This document shows, one piece after another, positions 48,894-57,560 of a DNA stretch of 64,000 bases; within the stretch, counting starts at the first letter, position 1; each line of letters begins with the position of its first letter. A program made the translations under genes and the position numbers. The notes under the pieces were generated by a model. The model made no database searches. It saw only the letters and a program-made list of their open reading frames with translations, and was not told the origin of the DNA. Origin of the DNA: Methanohalobium evestigatum Z-7303 (GTDB taxonomy: Archaea; Halobacteriota; Methanosarcinia; Methanosarcinales; Methanosarcinaceae); contig NC_014253.1 in assembly GCF_000196655.1 (NCBI RefSeq), positions 1,505,423 to 1,569,422 of the forward strand, read 5' to 3'.

Positions 48894-49835
48894 TTAGATA
48901 TAACCATTTTTTTCAAGAAGTGTAAGTGACCGTATCCATTCTCCTTTAGGCTCACGCGAGGTACCAACAACCAGACGTTTTGTATCTCCCAGATCTTCAA
49001 CAACCCCCTGAGCTTCCATGATTTCTCCTTCAACCACCTGACCTGCATAGGTATGGGTATATGAAAATACATGGTCTATTGTATCGTGGTCTATCTCAAA
49101 AACGGCAGGATTGTCAAATGCAAATTCCGAGCTGGTTACAGGCGCTTCAATTTTCATTCTTTTTGTGTCCTCACCCCTTTGTAATGGCTGATATATTTGA
49201 CTCCAGTCGCGCACAAAAAGCAGGTCAAAATACGTACCATCTACCATACCTCTGTTACCTTTTCTTTTTTCATGTAGTTTGAATTCATCAAAAGATATAT
49301 CCGGTACGCGTTTATTGTAGATTTTCAACCACATTTCCTCGTTTATTTCTTGTATAGACCCACCCTTTGATTTTGCCCGGAATATTGCATCACGGGCATC
49401 AAACCATGAACTACCATAAACAATAAAATCAATATCTGATCCATCCTTTTCAAGACCGGGCAAAAGTGAACCGGTCACCCCCATTTTATCTCTCGGGATT
49501 CCAGCTTCATCCAGTGTTTCCACGATTGATGCAACTTTTTTGTTTGTCTTTACGAGTTCAGGTATACGTTCATCTGGATAAAGAACCTTTTTCAATTTAT
49601 TTTTGGGGACTATGTGTACATCATTTACCCATAAAGGGCGATTGTCACGCATGAATTTAAAAGCGTCATTAAAATCGTATTTACTGTAACGGGTTCCATT
49701 CAGTTCACGGTCGCCGTTTTTATCAGGTACGTACCTGAGAATTGACCTTATACCGTTTGGATGAAAATAATCCGCCACTGCAAAAATCCAGTCATCTTCT
49801 GTTACTATAAAATCTCTAAGACGAGTTTTAACCAT
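48894..49835 (-). CDS. Archaeal nucleotidyltransferase-domain protein
   Basis: 313 residues. A pol-beta type nucleotidyltransferase motif is visible: MGVTGSLLPGLEKDGSDIDFIVYG (about 118-141), with GS and paired acidic residues DxD (SDIDF). Flanking parts are archaea-specific: an N-terminal RLRDFIVTEDDWIFAVADYFHP and a C-terminal domain with GEIMEAQGVVEDLG. It is likely to add nucleotides to an unknown acceptor. It convergently faces the DUF2098 gene, 19 bp apart. Confidence 0.75.
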   Translation of the reverse strand: MVKTRLRDFIVTEDDWIFAVADYFHPNGIRSILRYVPDKNGDRELNGTRYSKYDFNDAFKFMRDNRPLWVNDVHIVPKNKLKKVLYPDERIPELVKTNKKVASIVETLDEAGIPRDKMGVTGSLLPGLEKDGSDIDFIVYGSSWFDARDAIFRAKSKGGSIQEINEEMWLKIYNKRVPDISFDEFKLHEKRKGNRGMVDGTYFDLLFVRDWSQIYQPLQRGEDTKRMKIEAPVTSSEFAFDNPAVFEIDHDTIDHVFSYTHTYAGQVVEGEIMEAQGVVEDLGDTKRLVVGTSREPKGEWIRSLTLLEKNGYI

Positions 49836-49977: not shown

Positions 49978-50078
49978 GTAGAAAAAGTAGGGGACGAGCG
50001 GGTTGGGGAGTGGGGGTTTGTTGTAGGGGGAGTGTGGGTAAAAAAGTAGTCTTTGACCCGCTCGTTTCTAACCCTACC
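49978..50078 (-). ncRNA. Candidate structured small RNA (about 100 nt)
   Basis: A GC-rich island in AT-rich DNA. Paired arms are CCCTAC (50072-50077) with GTAGGG (49987-49992), then ACCCGCTCGT (50056-50065) with ACGAGCGGGT (49994-50003), 10 bp perfect. On the minus strand the loop is C-rich (CCCCCTAC, CCCCCACTCCCC). A TATA-like stretch (AAATATTTATATC, plus coordinates 50091-50104) lies about 20-27 bases upstream of the first arm, and CCCTACTTTTTC follows the last arm, so the minus strand is preferred. No ORF explains it; C-rich loops could pair with ribosome-binding sites. No known RNA family was matched. Confidence 0.6.
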
Positions 50079-50188
50079 ATAGTAATTTATGATATAAATA
50101 TTTATCCCTTATCATCGTATTTTAAATAAAATTTGGCAAATGAAAACAAATGTTCATCATCCATTATTTTCAATATCTGGATATTATC

Positions 50189-50219: not shown

Positions 50220-52238
50220 TTAGAAAATCCCAGCACCTATAAAGATGGCTGAGAAAAGAATGGATACCATATTTACAACCTTAATCAAAGCGTTAAGTGC
50301 CGGACCTGCCGTATCTTTGAATGGGTCTCCCACTGTATCCCCTACTACAGCTGCTTTATGGGCATCTGAACCTTTACCACCGTGTTCTCCGTCTTCAATC
50401 AGTTTTTTGGCATTGTCCCATGCACCTCCACCGTTGTCCATGGTCAGTGCAAGGAGAAATCCGGAAACAATGATACCCAACAAAAGACCCCCTAAAGCCA
50501 GAGGTCCTAGTACTAAACCTACAGCAAGGGGCACAACTACTGCCATTGCACCGGGTATAGCCATCTCACGGATGGCAGCCCTTGTTGCTATATCAACACA
50601 TTCACTGTATCCGGGTTTCGCCGTCCCTTCAAGGATACCGGGAATTTCCCTGAATTGTCGGCGGACTTCATTTACAACTTCAAAAGCTGCTTTTCCAACT
50701 GCTCTCATGGTGACCGCACTGAATATAAATGGCAGCAATCCACCTATAAATAGTCCGACAAGCACTACAGGGTTATCAAGGCTTAAACTCCCTGCACTTA
50801 GGTCGACCTTGTGTCGGTAATCAGCAAACAATGCCAGTGCACCAAGTGCAGCCGAACCTATTGCATAACCCTTAGTAACTGCTTTTGTAGTATTACCGAC
50901 TGCATCAAGTGCATCAGTAACGTTACGGACGTTTTCAGGTAAATCCGCCATTTCTGCTATACCACCAGCATTATCTGTAACCGGTCCAAATGAATCCATA
51001 GTTACAATCATACCGGTTGTTGAAAGCATTGCTGATGCTGCTATCGCAATACCATATAATCCTATTGCCGGTGCAGCAACCCCGCCAACAACAAAGTATG
51101 CGGCCAAGATACCTATTACAACAATTACTACTGGAAGTGCTGTACTTTCGAGTCCGATTGCAAGACCTGATATTACGTTTGTTCCTGCTCCTGTTTCGGA
51201 CGATTTGGCTATAGTTTTTACAGGTCTGAAACTTGTTGAGGTATAGTATTCGGTAAATACAACCATAAGAACCATTATAACTATACCGACAAGAGCCGCG
51301 TAAAAGAATTCTATATCACCCATCAGGAAATCCGTTACAAAGTAAAATGCCACAATGGATAATATCGCTGAAAGGGCTACACCTTTATAAAGTGCTTTCA
51401 TAATCTTTCCATCATCACCGACTTTTACAAAGAATATCGATATAATTGATGCAAAAATAGCCGTAGCTCCCAGTACAAGAGGATACAATATTGCATTTGG
51501 ATAGGTTTCCAGAATTACTGAACCGAGCAACATTGCCGCAAGCACTGTTACAACATAGGTTTCAAAAAGGTCTGCACCCATACCTGCACAGTCACCGACG
51601 TTATCACCGACGTTATCAGCAATTACTGCTGCATTACGTGGGTCGTCTTCTGGAATACCTGCCTCTATTTTACCTACAAGGTCTCCACCGACATCAGCAG
51701 CCTTTGTATAAATACCTCCACCAACTCTGGCAAAAAGACTGATAAGACTTGCACCAAATCCAAAACCTATTACAAGGTTTACGTCTCCATAAATTATGTA
51801 AAAACCACTCACACCAAGTAGCGCAAGACCTACAACCGCCAGACCTGTGACAGCACCACCGCGGAATGCAATAGCCATTGCCTCTTTCAATCCCTGTGAA
51901 GCAGCATTGGTGGTTCTGACATTTGCTCTGACAGATACATTCATCCCCAAATACCCTGCAGCTGCAGAACTTAAAGCTCCTGCTATAAATCCGATTGTTA
52001 TTTTACCACTGTCATCTCCAAGCAAAGCAAAAATCAGCAATGCAAGTACAATCGCAACAGCAGTAATAGTTTTATATTGACGGTTTAAATATGCCATTGC
52101 CCCTTCTTGTATAGCTCCTGCTATTTGCTGCATAGTTTCCGTTCCCGGGCTTTTTTTCATAATATTTTGTATAAAAAATGCAGAAAATACCAGGCTTACA
52201 ATACCTGCAATAGGGGCTATATATATTAGGCTATCCAT
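50220..52238 (-). CDS. hppA: Membrane-bound H+-translocating pyrophosphatase (K+-independent type)
   Basis: 672 residues, 15-17 membrane helices. It hydrolyses pyrophosphate and pumps protons. Diagnostic stretches are [47 protein letters not shown] (about 171-216), the second acidic site ([12 protein letters not shown], about 602) and the third ([14 protein letters not shown], about 630). The residue in GNTTKA (about 452) is Lys, the type that does not need potassium. Strong terminator downstream; single gene. Confidence 0.93.
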
Positions 52239-57038: not shown

Positions 57039-57560
57039 CCCCTCTCTTAGATTATGAAGCCTATTCGTTTTTTACTGTTAGCTGTCATTCCTCTATACCA
57101 CTATAATCATCATTATCATGATAGTTACACATATCATGAATCATTCTTATAGATTATATATGAATACTGTTTTTATAACATATTATATTATTTTATCGCT
57201 TTTATTCAGATATAGTCATATTTGTAAATAACTTATAAATAAGTATATGACTATAGCCTGGTTAAATTGTCAGTATATAGACGTATATAAGGTTATCGCA
57301 AATCTAATTCAGGATAAAAATTACAAATTTTATACTTATCACTATCAATCAAACTTATAATTAAATGATACTAATTACATATATTAATGTTGCATATAAA
57401 ATTTACTGATAAGTTTTTAAAGTATAAACCTGTGAAAGATATAATTTAGAATAAATTTAATATACCAGAAAACATGTAAAAATTTATAAAAACAATAAAA
57501 TAGATTTAATAGATTCCTTTCAATCAAAATAATATAGAGTAAAAAACATAGTCCTATATT
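57039..57560. other. AT-rich divergent spacer between ftsZ and the JAMM gene
   Basis: 522 bp, no gene and no clear structured element seen. It holds multiple TATA-like stretches (for example TATATTATTTTAT at about 57181-57193) that could serve either flanking gene. Confidence 0.4.

Follow-up and report, generated by a model that had tools for sequence, protein, structure and literature searches.

A multicopy family of predicted small RNA genes with C-rich loops in the archaeal class Methanosarcinia

We found that a hairpin locus on the minus strand of the analysed window, a stretch of 64,000 nucleotides from the genome of Methanohalobium evestigatum Z-7303 (contig NC_014253.1, positions 1,505,423 to 1,569,422), is probably the gene for a non-coding RNA of about 87 nt and one member of a multicopy family of small RNA genes. 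The family is real and old, it is absent from Rfam and, judging from the genome sequences, it is confined to the class Methanosarcinia among the sampled genomes and nearly universal there. A preliminary description of the locus had proposed a structured RNA gene with its own promoter on this strand, and the spacing of the TATA-like sequence, together with the homologous copies across the class, points to the same interpretation; what that description missed is that the gene belongs to a multicopy family represented in nearly all genomes of the class. Because homologous copies recur in nearly every one of these genomes, the pattern at the locus lies far beyond chance.

The predicted RNA extends over 49982..50068 of the window (minus strand), with its start placed by the spacing from the TATA box and its end by a run of five T. 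The 5' arm of the closing stem, ACGAGCGGGT (ACGAGCGGGU in RNA notation; 50056..50065), pairs and covaries with the 3' arm, ACCCGCTCGT (ACCCGCUCGU; 49994..50003), and these are the ten perfect base pairs noted earlier (50065..50056 with 50003..49994). The arms enclose a 52-nt loop (50004..50055) that has a single G, a T6 run, and two C-rich blocks, of which the first, CCCACACTCCCCC (CCCACACUCCCCC in RNA notation; 50026..50038), is accompanied in many copies by extra ACTCC units, and the second, CCCCCACTCCCCA (CCCCCACUCCCCA; 50004..50016), is near-invariant. The loop had been described as almost all C and A with two C-runs; the two blocks are present, but the loop also includes the T6 run, a conserved feature of the family. 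A TATA-like box, TTTATATC (50098..50091), precedes the stem and a T5 run (49986..49982) follows it on the minus strand, as had been seen before. A putative BRE/TATA promoter element, GATAAATATTTATATC, at 50091..50106 agrees with the family-wide TATA spacing in 137 copies, and the run at 49982..49986 is a possible transcription terminator, T5 being about two-fold enriched downstream of family copies. The earlier extension of the stem by six base pairs, GTAGGG (50072..50077) with CCCTAC (49992..49987), exists in the sequence, but its 5' strand falls before the start predicted from the TATA spacing and the pairing is absent from the second copy in the same genome, so this outer stem is probably incidental and outside the RNA.

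The minus strand of the locus folds at -23.7 kcal/mol, as compared to -14.6 ± 2.5 kcal/mol in dinucleotide shuffles (z = -3.7), none of the 200 shuffles being as good. In agreement with the preliminary description, no open reading frame of at least 50 amino acids overlaps the hairpin, and the common RNAs give no match: a search of the locus against all 4227 Rfam families returned zero matches at the gathering score and nothing relevant at a relaxed score, and ARAGORN found no tRNA or tmRNA. The locus lies between a gene for a membrane H+-pyrophosphatase upstream (50220..52238, minus strand; PF03030, E = 7e-271) and a gene downstream whose product has a weakly matching nucleotidyltransferase domain (48894..49835, minus strand; PF01909, E = 1e-4).

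In a DNA search, the same genome yielded two further copies, and 34 of 60 relatives gave matches. The extracted copies share a common layout of GAGCGGG, a U run, an A-rich spacer, CCCCCACUCCCCA, and CCCGCUC. An alignment of 49 sequences, from which the covariance model was built, shows the stem core GAGCGGG/CCCGCUC and the loop core to be near-invariant. Changes on both sides were found in 6 of the 12 stem pairs, and such changes fill 58 cells of the alignment as compared to 20 ± 6 in shuffles, where the sequences are related and the events are not independent. The signal was mostly lost in slid controls, the covarying changes fall mostly in outer pairs that were not used for choosing the 5' arm, and an unsupervised consensus fold gave the identical stem. 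The conservation in relatives that the preliminary description had named as a test of its own proposal is therefore borne out by compensatory changes. The stem sequence is more conserved than base pairing alone demands, and recognition by a protein could account for this.

Across 137 copies, the loops consist of 45% C and 2% G. They contain one to three C-rich blocks with the core CCCCACUCCCC; a U run of at least five is found in 110 of the 137 copies (about 10 in shuffles), and an extra ACUCC occurs in 31 tails where 4 are expected. Diverged copies in Methanosarcina keep the stem and several C runs, whereas the exact loop core is not kept. Some of these diverged copies in Methanosarcina genomes (L275-L280) lie in pairs about 0.4-1.5 kb apart and have longer loops with at least four C runs.

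The covariance model matched 175 of 186 genomes of the order and 225 of 238 genomes of the class. In a sample of the phylum, all 84 matching genomes were members of the class, with no match in the 309 others. The matching contigs are named as Methanosarcina, Methanolobus, Methanococcoides, Methanohalophilus, Methanomethylovorans, Methanosalsum, Methanohalobium, ANME-2, and Methanoperedens. Genomes carry from 1 to 14 copies, with 1-6 in most genera and 2 to 5 in Methanolobus; genus g19 (G105, G083, G102, and G108) shows an expansion to 10-14 copies per genome. Four copies were found in the genome of M. evestigatum, at 661848-661924 (minus), 1087639-1087699 (plus), 1383999-1384062 (minus), and 1555412-1555491 (minus) of contig C1, the last being the copy in the window. 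Genera g9 and g10 lack the RNA, as does family f6, and when the genomes without it were searched more sensitively, no hit was better than E = 0.09; an exact-pattern search of viral contigs returned zero copies.

Since the family is found in 150 of the 151 class genomes of high quality, has several promoter-bearing copies and is absent from Rfam, it makes a strong candidate for a core regulator at the post-transcriptional level among methane-cycling archaea. Acetate-using methanogens, ANME-2, and Methanoperedens all belong to the class, and a natural contrast is offered by the few lineages that lack the RNA. Archaeal small RNAs with a known function are, to our knowledge, very few, and few of them are conserved beyond the genus. 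Methanosarcina is genetically tractable, so the family is directly testable.

TATA-like hexamers peak sharply at 30-36 nt before GAGCGGG in the 137 copies, and BRE/TATA-like elements appear in nearly all of 85 non-redundant copies in an aligned listing. With the usual archaeal spacing between the TATA box and the start, the RNA would begin a few bases before the stem, and each copy would be transcribed from its own promoter with its 5' end at the short GC stem or a few bases ahead of it; for the copy in the window this spacing puts the predicted start near 50068. A T5 run within 60 nt downstream was seen in 68 of 136 copies, as compared to 37 in shuffles, and the 3' end is uncertain because this enrichment is only about two-fold.

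The neighbours of the copies differ in identity, and all orientations are seen. Some loci recur between genera, namely those at replication factor C (27 copies), an antiporter-subunit gene (17), a cofD-like gene (15), the pyrophosphatase gene (13, including the window and Methanosarcina), and an NADH-oxidase-like gene (13), where all names except the pyrophosphatase were read from translations. Since these old loci share no common cis gene and the neighbours vary, the RNA presumably acts in trans. The window would fit a cis-acting leader or riboswitch that serves the next gene downstream, which is co-directional there and starts about 150 nt further on; across the copies, however, the first gene downstream is often encoded on the opposite strand and its identity differs, and for want of a constant co-directional downstream gene we rejected this reading as very improbable. 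Even harder to credit is the idea that the RNA encodes a peptide, either as a small leaderless mRNA or as a dual-function RNA. Many copies do start with AUGAGCGGG or GUGAGCGGG, and putative dual-function small RNAs exist in Methanosarcina mazei (PMC11456600), but other copies, including the one in the window, start with ACGAG or AAGAG. The hairpin lengths are spread over all three frames (56, 43, and 38 copies), and with such varied starts no reading frame is conserved; a coding function was rejected by the frame distribution.

For the trans-acting RNA, we consider the masking of ribosome sites by the C-rich loop somewhat better supported than its denial. The loop, which would stay single-stranded because it has almost no G, would pair with the purine-rich Shine-Dalgarno regions of several mRNAs and lower their translation, and the U run would be a likely site for an archaeal Sm/Lsm protein. 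We compared loop pairing at 447 sampled genes of the M. evestigatum genome, about a fifth of the genome. The mean energy is -8.7 kcal/mol at ribosome sites and -6.0 kcal/mol in internal gene windows, the direction that the pairing to ribosome-binding sites suggested earlier would predict; however, 40 composition-matched shuffles of the loop reach a mean of -9.3 kcal/mol at ribosome sites, equal to or better than the real loop, and the reversed loop pairs with these sites as well as the real one. The pairing potential is real and comes from the richness in C. Because shuffled loops do as well, general pairing to ribosome sites does not explain the conserved order of bases; this order must have some other cause, for instance specific targets, a protein, or a stem-loop that is itself recognised. 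Long complements of the loop with up to two mismatches gave 44 matches in the own genome as compared to 35 in the control. In eight genomes searched for long complements of the loop core with up to one mismatch, exact matches were largely family copies, and no recurrent outside target was identified, the weak matches having been inspected in part. The sequence GTTGAGTGGGGG occurs exactly at five places on contig C1 of M. evestigatum (near 83893, 464057, 756357, 1588766, and 1720417) and is perhaps part of a repeated element.

Masking by C-rich loops is known from bacteria. In Listeria, LhrC uses three UCCC sites to bind a G-rich stretch before lapB (PMC4132741), the C-rich regions of IsrR act in the same way, and such Gram-positive RNAs serve AT-rich genomes in which few G runs exist apart from those in Shine-Dalgarno sites (PMC9410917). 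The family likewise has a C-rich, G-poor loop, a predicted promoter of its own, a trans location, and several copies, but its loop does not fit ribosome sites better than its composition predicts. LhrC and the other Gram-positive RNAs with UCCC or C-rich loops (RsaE, IsrR, and FsrA) share with the family the several near-identical copies per genome and the C-rich single-stranded loops. These RNAs are bacterial, however, and have no sequence relation to it; they are built of several stem-loops with a Rho-independent terminator, whereas the family has one 5'-terminal hairpin and a large loop with an internal U run.

We consider it rather unlikely, though worth weighing, that the RNA is a protein-binding decoy or a component of a ribonucleoprotein, with its loop core and stem sequence as the recognition site of a C-rich-binding or Sm/Lsm-type protein; the same limited credence goes to the part of this reading in which multiple copies titrate or guide the protein in the manner of CsrB/RsmZ. 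The near-invariance of both the stem core and the loop core, the conserved U run, and the repetition of CACUCC units within one RNA speak for binding of a protein, as does the finding that no pairing target stands out against shuffled loops. On the other hand, some Methanosarcina copies keep the C runs and not the exact core, which fits flexible base pairing at least equally, and no candidate protein was identified. CsrB/RsmZ-type RNAs similarly repeat a short motif in one RNA and occur in several copies, but their motif is GGA, whereas that of the family is C-rich, and we know of no CsrA-like partner. A doubtful variant is that a near-universal, multicopy RNA of the Methanosarcinia binds a dedicated protein or the translation apparatus, as a global factor in methanogens and ANME, rather than acting target by target as a small RNA; this would explain a stem sequence and loop core that are near-invariant across several families with no evident specific mRNA target.

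The masking of ribosome sites also agrees with what has been reported for M. mazei, where sRNA154 and sRNA41 are described as masking ribosome sites, sRNA41 on the mRNAs of ACDS (PMC5867862), and where deletion of sRNA41 is reported to raise 36 proteins (PMC6560208). It is plausible, although we place it somewhat short of an even chance, that the family comprises the published sRNA41, which entered our comparison by its description only, and its unrecognised homologues, which would mask ribosome sites in the mRNAs of the ACDS operon and of other genes. This identity is compatible with the masking mechanism and overlaps with it, so the confidences that we attach to the two do not sum to one. 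Toward the ACDS operon we calculated moderate pairing energies for the loop, -12 to -17 kcal/mol against the ribosome site of cdhE in four genomes and -13.5 to -17.7 kcal/mol against cdhB in three genomes (Methanosarcina and Methanolobus-type), with the strongest cdhB value in Methanolobus. In two Methanosarcina genomes about 20 kb separate the best copy from cdhC, and genera g9 and g10, which are without the RNA, are also without cdhC above the curated cut-off. In contrast, family f6 lacks the RNA yet keeps cdhC, and pairing energies of the size seen for cdh genes are common among the sampled genes. Published accounts describe sRNA41 and sRNA154 as intergenic trans-acting small RNAs of the same order, as the family is predicted to be, which mask ribosome sites, and as single regulators, whereas the family is multicopy across the class. 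In g10 (G010, G023, G033, and G114) and g9 (G009 and G022), no cdhC-like match scores higher than about 310-350 bits, which is short of the curated cut-off; in the genera that bear the RNA the scores are about 620-750 bits.

RNAs with C-rich loops that act in trans are a known kind, and this family appears to be unreported as a family; a full-text literature search with the loop sequence gave, among the matches listed, unrelated ones only. Single copies from Methanosarcina or Methanolobus may already stand in published RNA-seq lists. Nine conserved, cold-induced small RNAs with a "cold box" are described from Methanolobus psychrophilus (PMC5378194). They are a set of similar intergenic RNAs in the same archaeal family whose promoters are preceded by a common motif, and some copies of our family have a palindrome in that position; Methanolobus genomes, however, show only 2 to 5 copies of our family. 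This palindrome, CTCATCAT-N-ATGATGAG of the form ATCAT..ATGAT, lies about 60 nt before the stem and upstream of the TATA box in 10 of the 85 non-redundant copies, where 0.15 are expected. It is carried by the copy at 1383999-1384062 on contig C1 of M. evestigatum (L003), by L044, L086, and L088, and by others, several of them at the replication-factor-C locus, and it is absent from the copy in the window. The palindrome looks operator-like and suggests that the promoter of these copies may be regulated. At some Methanolobus loci, the neighbouring gene in divergent orientation seems to encode a protein of the Lrp/AsnC type. A similar palindrome, ATCATTATCATGAT, lies between two genes elsewhere in the window, at 57109-57122.
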